From an uncultured Acidimicrobiales bacterium (lineage in GTDB: Bacteria > Actinomycetota > Acidimicrobiia > Acidimicrobiales > SZUA-35): DNA of 64,000 bases. The DNA lies in NCBI GenBank assembly GCA_937922785.1, contig CALAJQ010000025.1:62001-126000 (forward strand), in the 5' to 3' direction. Under the pieces are notes generated by a model. That model was not told the origin of the DNA. It ran no database searches and saw only the letters and a list, made by a program, of their open reading frames with translations. Every line of letters begins with the position of its first letter. Within the stretch, counting starts at the first letter, position 1. This document shows positions 7,142 to 22,196 of this stretch, one piece after another. Both the position numbers and the translations under genes were made by a program.

Positions 7142-8632
7142 CTAGAACCCCGCAGCCCTAGCGGCATCCTGGACCCAGTAGTCGACCAGCTGGCGGTTAG
7201 CTGCAATCCACTCCGCAGCGATGGCCTTCACGTCGTCTTCGGAGTTCTCACCATTGTTGTATCGCTCGCTCGCTTCGACCGCAGCCTGAACAGGAATGAC
7301 CATATTGCGGAACAGCTGTGCGGCTGCCGGATTCTCAGCAATGAAGTTCTTGTTAGCTGTGATCTTGATGTCAGCCCAAGACCAGCCGATATAGCAATCC
7401 GCTTCGGTGCATGTATCGCCCAGTGGAGCAGGTCCAAGATCAGCCCAGTCCCAACCTTCTTGACATGGATCGGTGCCGTCGCACACGAACTCTGCCCCGC
7501 CAAGGCTTAGCCATAAAACGTTCTCACCCGGTTTTAGCTGTGTGAGATAGGCACTCGGACTCCAGGTGTACTGGATCGCAGGAAGGCCATCGTTAACTCG
7601 GGCAAGCGTTTCGGCGACCATGCCGTCGTAGCTGGCCGTTGTCTGTTCCAGGTTGGTCCATCCATTGCGATCAAAGATGGCTTGGGCGATGTCGTCACAA
7701 GTCCAGTCCACAGGACAGCCGTTCACGTTCGCCTTGCCATTGCCGTCGTAGTCAAAGAGGGCGACCAGCTTCGGGTCGCCGTTGATCTGCTGCAAGGAAG
7801 TGATGTCGTGCGCCTCTGCTACGGACTTAGTCACAACAAAGCCTTCGAGACCGGCGCCGGGAAGCAAGTTACCCAGCACGATCACACGGTCGCGAACCGT
7901 CAAGGCACCAGGTAGTTCTTCGTCGAACCAATCAAAGTGAAGGGGCATCCAGCTGTTGGCCCAGAAGTCAAGCTCCCCCATCGCCATTCGCCGATACGCC
8001 CAGCTTGGGGGATTCTCTTCTTGTGCTGGATCTGTCACGTTGTATCCGAGTTCACGCAGAAGCTGTGCTGTAACTGCGGCGTTGAAATAGCCCGTGCTCC
8101 AGTTCGCTCGAGCCGAAATTACAGTGACTCCTTGGCCTGGGCGAAGAGCGTATGGGTAGCTGCGGGTGAATTCTTGGTTGGCCGATATCCAGCGAACAAC
8201 TCCGCCTCGTGTTAGGTGACCTTCGGTTAGCAAGTCCAGCCAATAGTCGAAGCCGCGTTGGTCATAGTCACGACCCAACACATTTTCATAGACCGCCTCC
8301 AAGTATTGAAAGTCGTTCTTGTCTGCGTAGTTGTTTGCGAACTCATCCCCCGCGGAAAAGAATCCGGCGATGTCGTCGAGGGACCAACCTGACTCGCTGA
8401 CACCAAGCCAGTACTTAGCCCCATTCACATCAGGCTCACGACCGAAGAACGCTTGATAGAGCCTGAGCACTGGCGCATGGGCTTGGGCCGAATAGTCAGA
8501 AGACCGAACGATCTCTTCAACCGTTGTCGCTTCGGCGATGGTGTCACCAGGCGCAGCCGAGGTTGGCCCCGCCGTCATCGTGATCGCAGCCATAAGTGAA
8601 CAAAGAATTGCCACGCTGAGTTTCTTGACCAT
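7142..8632 (-). CDS. DUF4214 domain-glycine betaine/choline-type (OpuAC) substrate-binding protein
   Basis: A 496-aa secreted protein. A signal peptide (MVKKLSVAILCSLMAA...) is followed by a DUF4214 region (~residues 50-160) with two characteristic repeats, YQAFFGREPDVNGAKYW and YENVLGRDYDQRGFDYW. The C-terminal ~320 residues resemble OpuAC/ProX periplasmic ligand-binding domains (SARANWSTGYFNAAVTAQLL, ELDFWANSWMPLHFDW), whose Trp-rich pocket binds quaternary amines. No permease or ATPase lies beside it, so it may be a stand-alone receptor. The ATG at 8632 was chosen because GGAG lies 8 nt upstream; an in-frame start at 8665 would add 11 unlikely residues. DUF4214 is usually seen in surface or S-layer-associated proteins. 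Confidence 0.82.
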   Translation of the reverse strand: MVKKLSVAILCSLMAAITMTAGPTSAAPGDTIAEATTVEEIVRSSDYSAQAHAPVLRLYQAFFGREPDVNGAKYWLGVSESGWSLDDIAGFFSAGDEFANNYADKNDFQYLEAVYENVLGRDYDQRGFDYWLDLLTEGHLTRGGVVRWISANQEFTRSYPYALRPGQGVTVISARANWSTGYFNAAVTAQLLRELGYNVTDPAQEENPPSWAYRRMAMGELDFWANSWMPLHFDWFDEELPGALTVRDRVIVLGNLLPGAGLEGFVVTKSVAEAHDITSLQQINGDPKLVALFDYDGNGKANVNGCPVDWTCDDIAQAIFDRNGWTNLEQTTASYDGMVAETLARVNDGLPAIQYTWSPSAYLTQLKPGENVLWLSLGGAEFVCDGTDPCQEGWDWADLGPAPLGDTCTEADCYIGWSWADIKITANKNFIAENPAAAQLFRNMVIPVQAAVEASERYNNGENSEDDVKAIAAEWIAANRQLVDYWVQDAARAAGF

Positions 8633-16409: not shown

Positions 16410-16462
16410 GTTTAGATCATGCTTGATCTCCACAGTTGGTGCCATTCTGCAAGACTGATCCG

Positions 16463-18160
16463 GTGACGGCCGATCCCAACTCAATGTCGATTGCCGTGCC
16501 CCACAAGCGTTGGCCGCGTCGTCTTGCAACCTCTGTTGTAGCCGGTCTGGTATTGCTAGTTGGGGCATGGGCCATCGATTCGGTCGTGCACCGAAATGCG
16601 GTAGCTCGCGGAGTAACTGCCGGGGGCATCTCGCTTGCCTCCTTTGACGCAGACGAGGTCCGGTTCGCGGCATCAGAGCTAACCAGGTCGATGACAAACG
16701 ATCCCTTTACCTTGACCGTTGATGGGATCGCTCTGAAAACCAATCCCGTAGATTTGGGCGCCGAGGTTGACCCCGAAGCTCTTGCGGTGGATGCCCTGGA
16801 TGCTCGACGAGGGGGCTTTGTGCCATTCCGACCCTTTCGTTGGGTCACACACCTCTTTACTGAGCAAGAAGTAGCCCTTTCGTATCGATCTGACGTTGGT
16901 CGAGTGGCAGGCGCCGTCGAACGCATTACGGTCGATCTGCTCAAACCACCGATAGAGCCTCGTATGCGGTGGGGAACAAACGAAGTGATCTTTGTTCCCG
17001 GCGCCGATGGCCAAACAATCTCAGCTCCAGAGCTTGCCAGCGCCTTAGCCACCACCTTGGAGGCGGGGCAACCATATGCCTTGGCTCTAACCAGCTTCGC
17101 GGTCTCGCCCGAGGGCGACACCGAAGCCATTTTGGACACCGCCGAAGAAATCAACGATGCCCTCCGATGGCCAATGGAAGTACAGGTCGCTGGTTCAACC
17201 GTTGAGCTATCACCGAGTCAGCTGACTAGATGGGTGCGACTTGTTCACTCGCCCGCGCCTGGCTGGGAAGTGGATGAGGAGAGGGCGCTGTCAGAACTGG
17301 AACCGCTGCTTCTGAACCTGGGAGAGCCAGATCAACAACCTCAGTTTGTGGTGGTCATGGGTAGGCCACTAATTGCTCCGGCTCGCGAAACCTTGCGCTG
17401 TTGCGGCCCTGGAACCGGTGATGCAATTCGGGCTGGGCTGTTGACCGATCGGACGCCTGGCGACACACCACCTCAACCGGTGGCGCTTAAGGCTCGTGTC
17501 ACAAGTGGCCAGGTCGGCATGGAGGAGATGCTCCAACTCGGGGTTGTTGAAGAGGTCTCGACCTTCACAACCAGCCACCCTTGCTGCGCAAACCGGGTCA
17601 CGAACATTCAGTTGTTCGCCGACACAATTCGTGGCTCACTAATTTTGCCCGGTCGGGAAATGAGCCTGAATGAGACGGTCGGGATGCGCAAAGCCGAAGA
17701 CGGCTATTTGGCCGATGGGGCCATCGCTCAAGGGGTTCTAGAACCCCAGGTTGGCGGCGGTGTGTCTCAGGTGGCCAGCACCTTCTTCAGTGCCGCCTTT
17801 TTCGCAGGTCTGGATTTCGAGGAGTACCAATCTCACTCGCTTTACTTCAATCGATACGAGCGAGGCCGAGAGGCCACGATCTCATGGCCAAAGCCGGACC
17901 TTCGGGTGTCGAACTTCACTGATCACGCCGTGCTGGTCTGGACTTCATACACCCCTACGTCGATCACAGTTTCCATGTACTCGACCGATCACATCGAAGT
18001 GTCTGAAGTTGATCGCCAAGACTCATCGGTGGGCCAGTGCACAAAGGTGACCACGACGAGAGAAAGGCGCTATCAAAACGACATCGTCGTGACAGATACC
18101 GTGTTTGCCCTCTATAGACCAGCAGAGGGTCTTGACTGCAATGGCGATCCGACCAACTAG
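16463..18160 (+). CDS. VanW-family protein with one N-terminal membrane anchor
   Basis: About 565 aa: short basic N-terminus, one transmembrane segment (LATSVVAGLVLLVGAWAI), then repeated extracytoplasmic domains of the type preceding VanW (NDPFTLTVDGIALKT and the later AGSTVELSPSQL), and a C-terminal VanW domain from ~res 380. Its core motif is GGGVSQVASTFFSA; the usual Cys before Gln (GGGxCQ) is Ser here. VanW proteins are linked to the cell wall and vancomycin clusters but have no settled biochemical role. Several Cys pairs (CCGPG, CCANR) could form disulfides. Start uncertain: GTG 16463, ATG 16484 or TTG 16436; none has a Shine-Dalgarno sequence. Confidence 0.8.
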   Translation: MTADPNSMSIAVPHKRWPRRLATSVVAGLVLLVGAWAIDSVVHRNAVARGVTAGGISLASFDADEVRFAASELTRSMTNDPFTLTVDGIALKTNPVDLGAEVDPEALAVDALDARRGGFVPFRPFRWVTHLFTEQEVALSYRSDVGRVAGAVERITVDLLKPPIEPRMRWGTNEVIFVPGADGQTISAPELASALATTLEAGQPYALALTSFAVSPEGDTEAILDTAEEINDALRWPMEVQVAGSTVELSPSQLTRWVRLVHSPAPGWEVDEERALSELEPLLLNLGEPDQQPQFVVVMGRPLIAPARETLRCCGPGTGDAIRAGLLTDRTPGDTPPQPVALKARVTSGQVGMEEMLQLGVVEEVSTFTTSHPCCANRVTNIQLFADTIRGSLILPGREMSLNETVGMRKAEDGYLADGAIAQGVLEPQVGGGVSQVASTFFSAAFFAGLDFEEYQSHSLYFNRYERGREATISWPKPDLRVSNFTDHAVLVWTSYTPTSITVSMYSTDHIEVSEVDRQDSSVGQCTKVTTTRERRYQNDIVVTDTVFALYRPAEGLDCNGDPTN

Positions 18161-18194: not shown

Positions 18195-18212
18195 TGATAC
18201 CGGTGTGGTACC
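18195..18212 (+). promoter_or_regulatory. Heptamer pair TGATACC-N4-TGGTACC upstream of the 208-aa gene (SARP-type site)
   Basis: Two heptamers with 11-bp periodicity lie 9 nt upstream of TTTAAT (18222-18227), a 5-of-6 match to a -10 element that itself lies 6 nt before an in-frame GTG at 18234. Direct repeats on one helical face next to the -10 is the geometry of SARP/BTAD activator sites. Similar pairs occur at 19020 and 22179. Confidence 0.5.
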
Positions 18213-18227
18213 CATAGCCCTTTTAAT

Positions 18228-18854
18228 GTGTGTGTGGACTACCAAGCCCAGGCCAGAATTCAGAAACAGTTTCGAGCGCTCGTAACTGCAATTCGGCCAT
18301 CGATCATTTGGACCATCGACGGAGTCACACAGCCACGTGACCTTCTTGATGACGATGGAATCATTGGTTGGCAAGTTGGGCTCGGCTCTATTGAGGCTCA
18401 GCTTGAGGGAACCACGGACCCGTCCTTGCTGGCCTTGGCTGACTGGATCAATCGTGAACAGGAATTAGAGAAGTCTCGCTGGAAAAACCCTCGATTTGCG
18501 TTGGCTCAGGCTCGGGACGTGTTTGGTTCCAAATCGTGGCAAACAACCCGTGACCAGGCATTACTGGGTTGTTGGCTCGATAATATCGACGCAGCCTTGG
18601 TCCGATCTCCAGCTACGCACCGAAGTCCACTCCTCAGTACTCAGCGCTACGCCAGCCACTTGTCTCGCCTGCTAAAGAACGAGGCGCTTGCCGACGGCGT
18701 CAGGAATCGCCTTGAGAGAATTACCCAACTTGACCCGGCGCAAGAATCTAGAGAACCGATCCTGAATGATCCTCGGTTTGTAAACAGATCCGATTTGGCC
18801 ATGCTTGACTGCTGGCTTTGCTCAGCTCCATCGCAGCAGGCTGCAGCGGTATAG
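18228..18854 (+). CDS. Unknown 208-aa protein, next to the BTAD regulator
   Basis: I do not recognise a family. It is soluble, helical-looking and Trp/Arg-rich. A degenerate internal repeat is visible: NPRF...TTRDQALLGCWL (~res 86-120) and NDPRFVNRSDLAMLDCWL near the C-terminus share a DxAxLxCWL core. The first ~60 residues (RALVTAIRPSIIWTIDG) may be a separate module. The start is GTG 18228 or the in-frame GTG 18234; the latter sits 6 nt after a TTTAAT -10-like element and would be leaderless. The upstream heptamer pair resembles the one before the large regulator, so this gene may be one of its targets. Confidence 0.6.
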   Translation: MCVDYQAQARIQKQFRALVTAIRPSIIWTIDGVTQPRDLLDDDGIIGWQVGLGSIEAQLEGTTDPSLLALADWINREQELEKSRWKNPRFALAQARDVFGSKSWQTTRDQALLGCWLDNIDAALVRSPATHRSPLLSTQRYASHLSRLLKNEALADGVRNRLERITQLDPAQESREPILNDPRFVNRSDLAMLDCWLCSAPSQQAAAV

Positions 18855-18966
18855 AACCCAAAAAATCCGCTTAGAAAGCCCAATATTGCTGGTCTACCAA
18901 GGTGGGTGGTAGTCAGAGTCAGCGGCGATGAGCCTGACCACACACCCCTCTTGGAGGACATCCTTA

Positions 18967-18989
18967 CTTCCTGGGTTACCAACAGGAAG
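18967..18989 (+). terminator. Weak inverted repeat in the 301-bp gap before the regulator
   Basis: CTTCCTG-9 nt-CAGGAAG, a 7-bp stem without a T-tract. The rest of the 18855-19155 gap contains the heptamer pair at 19020 and an in-frame upstream extension of the regulator, and no other gene that I can support. Confidence 0.3.
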
Positions 18990-19019
18990 CCTGGAACCTA
19001 CGGAGAAATTATTCAGTCG

Positions 19020-19037
19020 CGGTACCACGTGAGTACC
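19020..19037 (+). promoter_or_regulatory. Heptamer pair CGGTACC-N4-GAGTACC upstream of the BTAD regulator
   Basis: The heptamers start 11 bp apart (19020 and 19031). Read with the next base, both contain GTACCACG. They lie about 120 bp before the regulator's first canonical start, suggesting autoregulation. A clear -10 is not visible at the expected 7-9 nt. Confidence 0.45.
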
Positions 19038-19155
19038 ACGACTGAATCAACAACGAACGACTCGCGCGTGCTATCACAGTAGAACGAGTTATCAAGCGCC
19101 TTTATCAATCCGATCGAAACTGATAGGAGAGCTTTGCCGCGCGTCCGGTCTAACT

Positions 19156-21939
19156 GTGTGTGTCTCCCCTACCGGCTTCGGCAAGACGATACTTGCCCAA
19201 CAGCTGGTAGAGGGCGCGATCTCTGCAGACAACGACACCACCGCCGACGCTACAAACAAGGCCGTCTTCAACAAGGTGTTGTCATTAAGTCCTGACGATC
19301 ATGCGGCGGTGTCGGCAGCAGTTTCAAACATGACAGATCGCACTAGATCCCTAATTGTCATTGATGACGCCACCACTGACTGCCTTGCCCTCTTGGACCA
19401 AATTGATATTCCCGCCAACAATAGTGTTGTTGTTTTCAGCCGGCATGAGCCGCCCCCCGCGATGCTTCAGAGGCAGCGAACGACCTACCTCGGCGTGCCT
19501 GAGCTGCGGTTCAGCTACCCAGAGTTGGTTCAACTTTGTGGAGAAGCCGTCAACCAAGAGAAGGCAGAACCCCTTGCACTAGTGCTGGACTCGATGACAG
19601 CGGGTTGGCCAGAACACGTCGTTCGGGTCCTGTCAGCTATGTCGCTTCATGGATATGAACCGGAGTCGGCTCATCTGCTTATCTACGACGGCCACCATCT
19701 CGACGATCTCATCAATCGCTGCATGGACAGTCTGAGTCCTACCTTTCAGGAAGGGCTGGAACAGCTTTCGCACCTGCCATCGTTTTCTGCCGGTGCGGCA
19801 AATGCATTTGTTCCCGGCCTGGCGGCAGAAGCAACCAGGTCCGGGTTCCCTCTCTACCGAGGCCGGGGCGGCGCTTTGGAGATGCCGATGCTCTTGCGCG
19901 AGCACCTGAAACGTCGATCGACCTTGACCGATGAGTCGGCAACAATTCTGGCGCCCCTTCTGGTGGCAACTCTTGGTGTGCCCGATGCCTTAGGTTCGCT
20001 GTTGTCCGCAGGTGCAACTGCTCAAGCAGCAGCAATTGTCTGCCAGATGTCTCCGAACCAACTGGCTGCGTCAAACCAAGCGAACATGCTTGGAATCTTC
20101 CGGGCAATCGAGCGGACCGAGCCAGATAACCCGAGCGTTGTTCTACGCAGGGCAATAGTTCACCGCAACATGGCTCAGCTCAAAGCAGAGCGCGAGGCCG
20201 TGGAAAGCGCCTTGGATATCGCACGACGTATCGGGGACACCGACGAAGAGTTAGCTGCGGAGGTTGCGCTACTAAGAATTGACCTACGCCACATTGATCA
20301 AGCCCAAGCCGAAGCATGGCTAACCAGGCTTGAAGAAAGCTCAAATACATCAAGTAGCTCCCCCGTTGGAATCGGGCTTCGCGAACTTCGAGCGATGGTC
20401 CTCGAGCAGAAGGCCGATCTGCAATCTATTTACCGTTCGATCGAGCTTCTCGCCGAGCTGGCATCGGAATGGGAACACATCGGAGACCGGGCACGCTCGG
20501 CACAACTACTGCGAATGATGGCAGCTGGGCCGCTGAATACGATTGGGGATTATCAAGAAGCCCGGATAACTCTCGACCGAGCGGCAAAACTGGTCTGGGA
20601 CAATCCAATGGGGATGGCCGTTACGTCTCAGTTACTCTGCCGCTTTCTTGCTCTGGTCGGTGACTCTGACCGATTCGAGACCGAGCTCGCCAGGGCCAGT
20701 GGACTCATCGACGCAGTCGATCTTCGCTGGATGAGCGGCTATCTAGACTGGGCCGTTGTCCATTGCAGTCTGCTAAAGAATGACAGACAAGCAGCAGAGC
20801 GTGCGCACAAACGTGCAATCGACAGACTGGGCGAATTGTCGAACGACGATACTGGCGTGATCTTTTTTGCCGAATCTGCAGCGGTGCTAGCAGTTCTCGG
20901 TTCAGATGATCTAGCTCGCGACTGTCTAGACCGATCCTTGCGTCAAAGTTCGCCCAATCACATCGAAGTCGCGGTTGCCTCGATCGTGGTGGAGGCACGC
21001 ATCGGCGACGCCAAGTTGGTAGAGGCCAAGGCGGCGGAGCTTAAAGCCACTGGCAACCTGGCGCACGAAAGGTTGTGGCGGGTGGAGCTGGAGCAACTAG
21101 TTGCGCTGCAACGAATGGGGATGGGTGACGCAGACTTCTCTTCAGCGGTCGCAGAACTCCGCTCTAATAGCGAGGAACTGGGACTAGCCCGTTTAGTTGA
21201 AGCGTTGTTGCCCCAGGTGCCTACGCAAGAGCCTGTCCACGGCGCCCCGCCGCAGACTTCGACCGACACCCAGATCGAGCTACTCGGGGAGTTCAGAGTC
21301 AGGGTTAACGGTGAGGTTCTTGAGCTGGCTCCGGGCCACGTGACCACACTTTTGAAATTGCTCGCCGTTCGCGGCGAGCCCATGGCAGTCGAGGTCGTCG
21401 TTAGCAACCTTTGGCCCGACGCCGACATCGGAGTGGGCAAGCGCAGACTGAAGAACGTGGTAAGCAGGCTGCGTCATGCGGTGGAGAACCCCATCATTGA
21501 GAGGCTTGGAGAACGAATTTCGCTTGCTGACAATGTCGGGACCGACCTTGCAGCTTTTCGCAGTGCCGCCAATGCCGCGGTAAGACCAAACGATGGCCGA
21601 GGGCTTGGAGCATGTATCGAAGCCCTGAACCTCTACACCGGCCATCTACTCCCGACCGACCTCTACGACGACGAAATCACGCGAGAGCGAGATGCTTTGC
21701 GCGCTGTCGCTCTGTCGGTGTTGGAAATGACGCTCGAACACGCTGCCGGCGGAGGAGTTTCGCCAGCATGGTTGTTGCAGACAGCTATGAGACTCGAGCC
21801 TGACTCGGAGGTGCCCTTCCTCAAGATCGAGGCGATAGCCGATTCAGCAGGCTCAACAGAATGTGCCGCCGCAGCACATTCTCAGGCTCTTGCGCTAGCT
21901 GAAGACCTAGGCATCTTTCTCGACCCCAGACCTGTCTAG
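19156..21939 (+). CDS. Large AfsR/MalT-like transcriptional regulator: P-loop ATPase, TPR region, C-terminal wHTH-BTAD
   Basis: 927 aa from the GTG. Walker A is SPTGFGKT at residues 4-11 (MalT-type, A/SPxGxGKT) and a Walker B-like SLIVIDDA follows at ~60. Residues ~250-690 are helical TPR-like repeats. Residues ~705-790 (QIELLGEFRVRVNGEVLELA ... LKNVVSRLRHAV) form an OmpR-type winged helix, and ~795-927 a BTAD domain, the DNA-binding and activation module of SARPs. Here it is C-terminal, unlike AfsR, where it is N-terminal. The homologous-looking frame continues upstream (SKLIGELCRASGLTV) with no ATG/GTG/TTG start, so the N-terminus is unsettled. Heptamer pairs nearby suggest autoregulation and local targets. 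Confidence 0.85.
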   Translation: MCVSPTGFGKTILAQQLVEGAISADNDTTADATNKAVFNKVLSLSPDDHAAVSAAVSNMTDRTRSLIVIDDATTDCLALLDQIDIPANNSVVVFSRHEPPPAMLQRQRTTYLGVPELRFSYPELVQLCGEAVNQEKAEPLALVLDSMTAGWPEHVVRVLSAMSLHGYEPESAHLLIYDGHHLDDLINRCMDSLSPTFQEGLEQLSHLPSFSAGAANAFVPGLAAEATRSGFPLYRGRGGALEMPMLLREHLKRRSTLTDESATILAPLLVATLGVPDALGSLLSAGATAQAAAIVCQMSPNQLAASNQANMLGIFRAIERTEPDNPSVVLRRAIVHRNMAQLKAEREAVESALDIARRIGDTDEELAAEVALLRIDLRHIDQAQAEAWLTRLEESSNTSSSSPVGIGLRELRAMVLEQKADLQSIYRSIELLAELASEWEHIGDRARSAQLLRMMAAGPLNTIGDYQEARITLDRAAKLVWDNPMGMAVTSQLLCRFLALVGDSDRFETELARASGLIDAVDLRWMSGYLDWAVVHCSLLKNDRQAAERAHKRAIDRLGELSNDDTGVIFFAESAAVLAVLGSDDLARDCLDRSLRQSSPNHIEVAVASIVVEARIGDAKLVEAKAAELKATGNLAHERLWRVELEQLVALQRMGMGDADFSSAVAELRSNSEELGLARLVEALLPQVPTQEPVHGAPPQTSTDTQIELLGEFRVRVNGEVLELAPGHVTTLLKLLAVRGEPMAVEVVVSNLWPDADIGVGKRRLKNVVSRLRHAVENPIIERLGERISLADNVGTDLAAFRSAANAAVRPNDGRGLGACIEALNLYTGHLLPTDLYDDEITRERDALRAVALSVLEMTLEHAAGGGVSPAWLLQTAMRLEPDSEVPFLKIEAIADSAGSTECAAAAHSQALALAEDLGIFLDPRPV

Positions 21940-21952
21940 CTTCGCGGTGGGC

Positions 21953-22078
21953 CTAGATGGTCCAGATGTTTGCGACGAAAAGGCCCATGTTGGTGGCCAG
22001 AGCTAGGGTGATCATGAGGAACAGTGCTGCTAGGGCGGCGGCGATTGCTGGAACGGTGGTCTTGGTTGCTGTAAGCAT
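21953..22078 (-). CDS. 41-aa single-pass membrane peptide
   Basis: A small ORF (MLTATKTTVPAIAAALAALF...) with one hydrophobic helix at residues ~9-36 and a short C-terminus ending VANIWTI. AAAGGAT lies about 9 nt before the ATG, a good Shine-Dalgarno sequence. It is convergent with the BTAD regulator (13-nt gap). About 100 bp upstream is the heptamer pair CGGTACC-N4-TGGTACC, followed 7 nt later by TATCAA. Position, size and this putative site recall AfsS downstream of AfsR, but the sequence is not AfsS-like. A longer in-frame start (22186) exists but lacks a ribosome site. Confidence 0.55.
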   Translation of the reverse strand: MLTATKTTVPAIAAALAALFLMITLALATNMGLFVANIWTI

Positions 22079-22151
22079 TTTGATTGATCCTTTGTTGCCC
22101 CGGCTACATGGCTGGGGGTTGGAGTTGGTATGGATCATCAAAGTTGGAGAC

Positions 22152-22196
22152 GGTACCGCCAGCGGTTGATACGACGCTGGTACCACGGAGGTACCG
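22152..22196 (-). promoter_or_regulatory. GGTACC heptamer cluster between the membrane peptide and the reductase gene
   Basis: On the minus strand: CGGTACC (22196-22190), 4-nt spacer, TGGTACC (22185-22179), 7 nt, then -10-like TATCAA (22171-22166). A further CGGTACC sits at 22158-22152. The orientation and spacing relative to the minus-strand peptide match those of the 18195 site relative to its gene. The plus-strand reductase gene at 22339 could also be served. Confidence 0.5.

Follow-up and report, generated by a model that had tools for sequence, protein, structure and literature searches.

Rap-Phr, PlcR-PapR and Rgg-SHP are members of the RRNPP group. MalT/LAL-type regulators combine a P-loop region and TPR helices with a LuxR-type DNA-binding domain. 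Among the criteria given for RRNPP systems in PMC10075063 is a receptor of 250–500 aa, and the signals of Actinomycetota are described there as typically small molecules. SARPs bind heptamers separated by 4-nt spacers (PMC5930380); a distance of 8 bp between the 3′ repeat and the −10 element is stated for them, and the TPR domain of large SARPs has been termed a tentative sensor (PMC10936776). Among the papers listed from the open-licence PMC literature, preprints excluded, none reports a peptide signal for a SARP/BTAD regulator.

The locus described here lies in a 64,000-nucleotide stretch of DNA (the window) from an uncultured Acidimicrobiales bacterium. A first-pass annotation had seen in it a local regulon resembling AfsR-AfsS, consisting of a large BTAD-type regulator, three GGTACC pairs at 11-bp spacing around it and, as targets, a 208-aa gene, the regulator itself and a 41-aa peptide. 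The local regulon is supported as a reading of the predicted sites. The preferred reading of the locus as a whole, with a probability of about 0.58, is that the peptide is an exported signal and the TPR-SARP regulator its cognate receptor, an RRNPP-like logic built on a different regulator family.

The positions of the three pairs were confirmed on the sequence (Table 1), as were −10-like hexamers near two of them: TTTAAT at 18222-18227 for site 1 and, on the minus strand, TATCAA at 22171-22166 for site 3. By counting on the sequence, 9 nt separate the end of site 1 from its hexamer and 7 nt the end of site 3, against the 8 bp known from SARPs, the hexamers here being only −10-like. The extra GGTACC at 22152 and the inverted repeat at site 2 were both absent from the first-pass annotation. 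A gene for a VanW-domain protein (16436-18160) lies directly upstream of the locus.

Table 1. Features of the regulator locus, in window coordinates.
Feature	Position	Strand	Remarks
Site 1, GATACC-N5-GGTACC	18196-18212	+	before 208-aa gene; units start at 18196 and 18207
208-aa partner gene	18228-18854	+	start GTG 18228 or in-frame GTG 18234
Inverted repeat around site 2	19011-19047		arms 19011-19025 and 19033-19047, 15 nt, 93% complementary, 7 nt between
Site 2, GGTACC-N5-AGTACC	19021-19037	+	before regulator; units start at 19021 and 19032
Regulator	19084-21939	+	P-loop region, TPR-type helices, C-terminal SARP domain (wHTH+BTAD, about 21260-21930)
Peptide gene MLTATKTTVPAIAAALAALFLMITLALATNMGLFVANIWTI	21953-22078	-	41 aa; signal-peptide-like N-terminus, tail ...ANIWTI
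Extra GGTACC	22152-22157		27 bp from 22179, 38 bp from 22190
Site 3, exact GGTACC-N5-GGTACC	22179-22195	-	before peptide gene; units at 22179 and 22190

As RNA, the inverted repeat at site 2 has a predicted fold of −20.4 kcal/mol (z −4.15), and none of 200 shuffles was equally stable. This stability speaks for an RNA hairpin, either an attenuator or the terminator of the upstream gene, in place of an operator. However, the repeat encloses a GGTACC pair and a T-run is absent, and a hairpin function seems very improbable.

Within the window, four pairs match at ≤2 mismatches where 1.03 are expected, and at least four were reached in 5 of 100 shuffles; from the count alone, the evidence for the pairs is modest. 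A genome-wide scan had been suggested as a check, and it returns a background count: the 4.9-Mb genome has nine pairs at ≤1 mismatch compared with 15 for a reversed-pattern control, and counts in six relatives are likewise not above this control. What stands is the clustering. Three of the nine pairs sit within 4 kb at the regulator locus, all before genes, whereas the density of the six pairs elsewhere gives an expectation of about 0.005 per 4 kb, and site 3 is the sole exact GGTACC-N5-GGTACC pair in the genome. Since every one of the other six overlaps an ORF of at least 100 aa, a genome-wide regulon was rejected and the putative regulon is read here as limited to the regulator locus. No further targets were found in the genome at ≤1 mismatch.

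The regulator ORF is 927 aa long. Its SARP/BTAD type, proposed by the first-pass annotation, is borne out by the C-terminus, which matches the SARP domain of three BTAD proteins from the window's own genome (hhalign 97.7%, E 1.4e-12, 231 columns). A Pfam search of the window regulator left BTAD unnamed, and BTAD is over the cut-off in one of seven relatives scanned (G507; handles of this kind denote genomes). The SARP domain is C-terminal, not N-terminal as in AfsR, and the regulator is a SARP-domain protein with a different domain order, no AfsR orthologue. Pfam TPR matches are weak in the window regulator and in two of the seven relatives, that of G509 being just over the cut-off. In the structural model (mean pLDDT 55.6, with the SARP part modelled poorly), TPR-type helices have a pLDDT of about 60-91 across most of residues 270-680, dipping to 32-47 at 461-510. 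Foldseek matches of the model are mostly helical-repeat proteins, including the solved STAND-TPR protein 6mfv; among sequence relatives in the PDB, none was informative. In the regulator frame (19084-19156), the first ATG, GTG or TTG after the upstream stop is GTG 19156, yet homology reaches upstream of it; a rare start codon or an assembly error is possible. On contig C36 of the same genome (L107, L108), two further BTAD matches lie close together, at 7514 and 19664.

Long homologues of the regulator with 28-34% identity are found in 6 of 60 relatives. Counting the window's own genome, the regulator profile is over the cut-off in 9 of 39 genomes of the family, and in at least 13 of 395, at least 27 of 397 and at least 5 of 396 genomes of the class, order and phylum samples, respectively. 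The last three counts are lower bounds with two candidates scored per genome, and many rows of the class and order samples match chiefly the C-terminal domain and were not counted as full-length. The regulators of the relatives measure 770-1,001 aa, while the frame of G015 is split or truncated (about 635-638 residues). Near the g9 regulator of G008 (L049) are two adjacent genes with TPR-type and weak HisKA matches, one of them with a histidine-kinase ATPase domain, and similar-looking ORFs occupy the corresponding place in G017 (L050). In G015 (L105, 2016-5094), the regulator-peptide pair adjoins an FHIPEP (FlhA-type) gene.

In many relatives the homologous regulator is likewise accompanied by 11-bp pairs, in keeping with the earlier proposal of a local set of such pairs at a SARP regulator. 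The unit of the pairs differs among regulator groups (GGTACC, GGTCCC, CGTCCC, GGTCTC), and a universal GGTACC motif was rejected on this ground. At the regulator loci in genus g8, GGTACC units surround the regulator and exact 11-bp pairs precede it in G007 and G026; an exact GGTACC pair also precedes the regulator of G666. The G016 locus has pairs with at least two mismatches, and none of the seven GGTACC pairs at ≤1 mismatch in that genome is at the locus. Exact GGTACC pairs lie off-locus in G026 (one of two) and G008 (one of one). The G002 locus has a GGTCCC pair and the G015 locus a GGTCTC pair. G008 and G017 (genus g9) have a single exact TGGGACG-N4-TGGGACG apiece, in both cases at the regulator locus, and the five other genomes searched have none.

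It might be supposed that the pairs arose by chance, or belong to another factor, and that their association with the regulator is accidental. The window shuffles and the control counts in the window's genome and the six relatives would be compatible with this. However, the pairs recur beside regulators merely about 30% identical, and the motif changes with the regulator, as the locus-only TGGGACG pairs of G008 and G017 illustrate, so that the supposition has very little to commend it.

With the unit chosen for each locus, the best equal-unit 11-bp pair in the 15 peptide promoters scores at least 11 of 12 in 11 of them, 10 in G016, G666 and G507, and 9 in G587; in some promoters a score of 11 is also reached with a different unit or spacing. 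Before the regulator, the locus's own unit scores at least 11 in 6 of 14 loci within the scored stretch, the pair of G002 being the peptide pair itself and the exact pairs of G007 and G026 falling outside that stretch. No good pre-regulator pair was found in the scored stretch of G640b or G507, and G016, G008 and G017 reach just 10. Exact 7-mer repeats at 11 bp are present in four of the first eight peptide promoters, against a mean of 0.09 loci and a maximum of 2 in single-base shuffles. Where the units are non-palindromic, they form a direct pair, with any additional units in inverted orientation (G008, G017, G002, G015), and several related peptide promoters have a third, inverted unit at distances of about 27 and 38 bp. 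A four-unit template with offsets 0, 11, 27 and 38, the last two inverted, was tested on eight loci. In the window, G016, G008, G017 and G015, only 0-1% of shuffles attain the best score of the template; in G002 4.5% do, with the best placement not at the GGTCCC pair; it is not significant in G007 (0.76) and G026 (0.24), and an alternative gap scored equal or better in all eight loci. With this weak support, the template was rejected as a fixed operator and is kept as a description only. In G507, an exact GGTACC pair lies after the regulator and before a thioesterase gene, which hints at a possible metabolic output.

A signal-like ORF of 33-41 aa, in which a basic start leads into a hydrophobic stretch and then a short tail, is present beside the regulator in all 15 inspectable loci: the window, G007, G016, G026, G008, G017, G002, G015, G587, G509, G679, G666, G640 (two loci) and G507. 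Fourteen of these loci are defined by a regulator match to profile A1 at E ≤ 1e-130, A1 having been built from seven of them, and the fifteenth, G015, has a split regulator gene with an A1 match of 1.8e-60. G679:C159 was excluded, being cut by a contig end. Eight of the loci, from G015 onward in the list, were found after the peptide idea was formed. The signal was judged by hydropathy. The peptide gene is upstream on the regulator's strand in G002 and G507, and downstream and convergent in the other 13.

The peptides can be picked out from their surroundings by a scan for ORFs of 30-45 aa that have an ATG start, a Shine-Dalgarno sequence, a signal-like N-terminus and an aromatic residue among the final four positions, criteria that, like the tail groups used below, were fixed after the peptides had been seen. 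Across 405,494 bases, with the G016 record left out and 2 kb of G507 counted twice, the scan recovered 14 of 14 peptides and one other ORF, or four others if the aromatic condition is dropped. The sole other ORF, in the G074 record, runs antisense within an ORF of 898 aa; it is some 1 kb away from the regulator, and no repeat precedes it. An earlier scan for signal-like ORFs behind an exact 11-bp 7-mer pair, covering the loci then in the set except L046-L051, found peptide loci only and missed the window and g8.

A tail pattern recurs at the C-terminus of the peptides. In an ungapped comparison of 14 sequences from that end, leaving out G679 as a near-copy of G509, Gly is found at −5 in 13, Ala at −7 in 10 and Trp at −3 in 9, often as A-x-G-x-W-x-G/I; the window tail is the one without Gly at −5, and Trp at −3 is missing from five tails. 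The last six residues share 3.27 identities within regulator groups compared with 1.80 between them (label-shuffle p=0.00015). The leaders have little in common between groups. The window peptide and that of G587, whose regulator is the sister of the window regulator in the tree (100/99), both end in -WTI.

The 41-aa product is read here as a probable exported peptide because it belongs to this signal-peptide-like set with its recurring tail. The AfsS-like output of the first-pass annotation found no support and was set aside on the same basis, the signal-like N-terminus and the recurring tail, and the product has no match to a named family in Pfam or NCBIfam. An ordinary cascade of the AfsR-AfsS type, in which the 41-aa product would be an intracellular regulator of downstream genes, does have similar wiring, in which a large SARP-domain regulator is coupled to a small gene that carries a paired box at 11 bp (AfsR/afsS in PMC10936776). 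Nevertheless, with signal-peptide-like N-termini on all 15 peptides and no named-family match for that of the window, such a cascade appears improbable.

The regulator may also sense something else, with the peptide as a mere output, such as an exported effector, a small surface peptide or an antimicrobial, kept beside its activator. The strongly hydrophobic character of the window peptide would suit such a product. So would the surroundings of more distant homologues, some of which have no peptide and carry 11-bp pairs adjoining larger exported proteins, so that an exported output may be ancestral. Examples are found in the flanks of L053 and L054, where distant BTAD regulators have 11-bp tandem heptamers beside genes for larger exported-looking proteins. 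No peptide was found beside the distant homologues G441, G549, G585, G484, G193, G074, G114 and G237, nor at five phylum-sample loci (flanks of ≤1.5 kb, one of them truncated where the contig stops), and G441, a family member, has neither an exact 11-bp 7-mer pair nor a signal-like peptide. Such homologues indicate that the paired sites may predate the peptide, or that the peptide was lost, and these regulators may originally have controlled exported proteins. In favour of a peptide signal, the peptide carriers make up one side of a single branch in an unrooted regulator tree of 23 rows (96/93; shuffled mean 6.9), G015 and G002 being long branches; midpoint rooting places G507 among the peptide-less rows, and the carriers do not then appear as a clade. 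Against a mere output, the tail is short, its pattern recurs and tracks the regulator group, and all 15 regulators retain the peptide, which goes beyond what a simple target would need. The output-only explanation seems unlikely, though it deserves to be taken seriously.

The third member of the locus, the 208-aa protein, belongs to no named family. A profile search detects a relative at eight of these 15 loci with a peptide (the window, G007, G016, G026, G008, G017, G587, G507) and also at G679:C159, and the relatives share an R-P-S-I-like motif. None was found in the records of G002, G015, G509, G679:C246, G666 or either G640 locus, and in the class sample the profile detects 1 of 395 genomes, the window's own. 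The model of the protein has a mean pLDDT of 60.8 and no PDB match at E ≤ 0.001. A link between the Trp of RPSIxW and that of the peptide tail was considered and rejected: it fits the window, G587, G008 and G017, with both residues absent in g8, fails in G507 and is confounded by ancestry.

Under the preferred reading of a peptide signal and its receptor, the SARP domain of the regulator would bind the 11-bp paired heptamers that precede three genes, those for the 208-aa protein, the regulator itself and the peptide, as the DNA pattern suggests. The N-terminus of the peptide, which resembles a signal peptide, would direct its export, and trimming would leave a short tail. By the A-x-A rule for signal-peptide cleavage, the tail would here lie within TNMGLFVANIWTI, the place of cleavage being a guess. 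The trimmed peptide would then re-enter the cell. Proteins of the SBP_bac_5 type include peptide importers, and six are encoded in the window's own genome, which permits import and is unspecific, SBP_bac_5 being over the cut-off in 11 of 14 control genomes. Inside the cell, the peptide would bind the TPR domain of the regulator and thereby switch how the regulator acts on the promoter of the peptide gene and on a small number of further promoters. The 208-aa protein may, more speculatively, be an accessory, perhaps a modulator of the regulator or the peptide.

The relatives raise a broader proposal, for which the chances seem about even: a pheromone system in Actinomycetota (Acidimicrobiales) that uses peptides yet falls outside RRNPP, defined by SARP receptors with a TPR sensor, tails of the A-x-G-x-W-x-G/I form and its variants, and an 11-bp-pair operator that is partly inverted and in G507 also stands before the thioesterase gene. 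If true, the class would gain a communication system open to testing, in which SARP regulators read a peptide that is genetically encoded, and the TPR domain of large SARPs would have a concrete candidate for its ligand.

The likeness to RRNPP systems lies in a TPR-type receptor-regulator beside a small propeptide gene with an export signal, predicted here at 15 of 15 loci. RRNPP receptors of 250-500 aa are found in Bacillota, whereas the regulators here are from Actinomycetota, have a C-terminal SARP DNA-binding domain and measure 927 aa in the window and about 770-1,001 aa in the relatives, peptide binding being only predicted for them. With MalT/LAL-type regulators the window regulator shares the P-loop region and TPR helices, consistent with STAND-TPR 6mfv among its Foldseek matches, but its DNA-binding domain is of the SARP type and the P-loop is degenerate in the g8 regulators. 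The SARPs with additional NOD/TPR domains, AfsR and the SARP-LAL PimR, have the SARP domain and the 11-bp paired repeats in common with it. Unlike in those systems, several of the peptide promoters here add an inverted third or fourth unit to the pair, and the neighbouring gene encodes an exported-type peptide.
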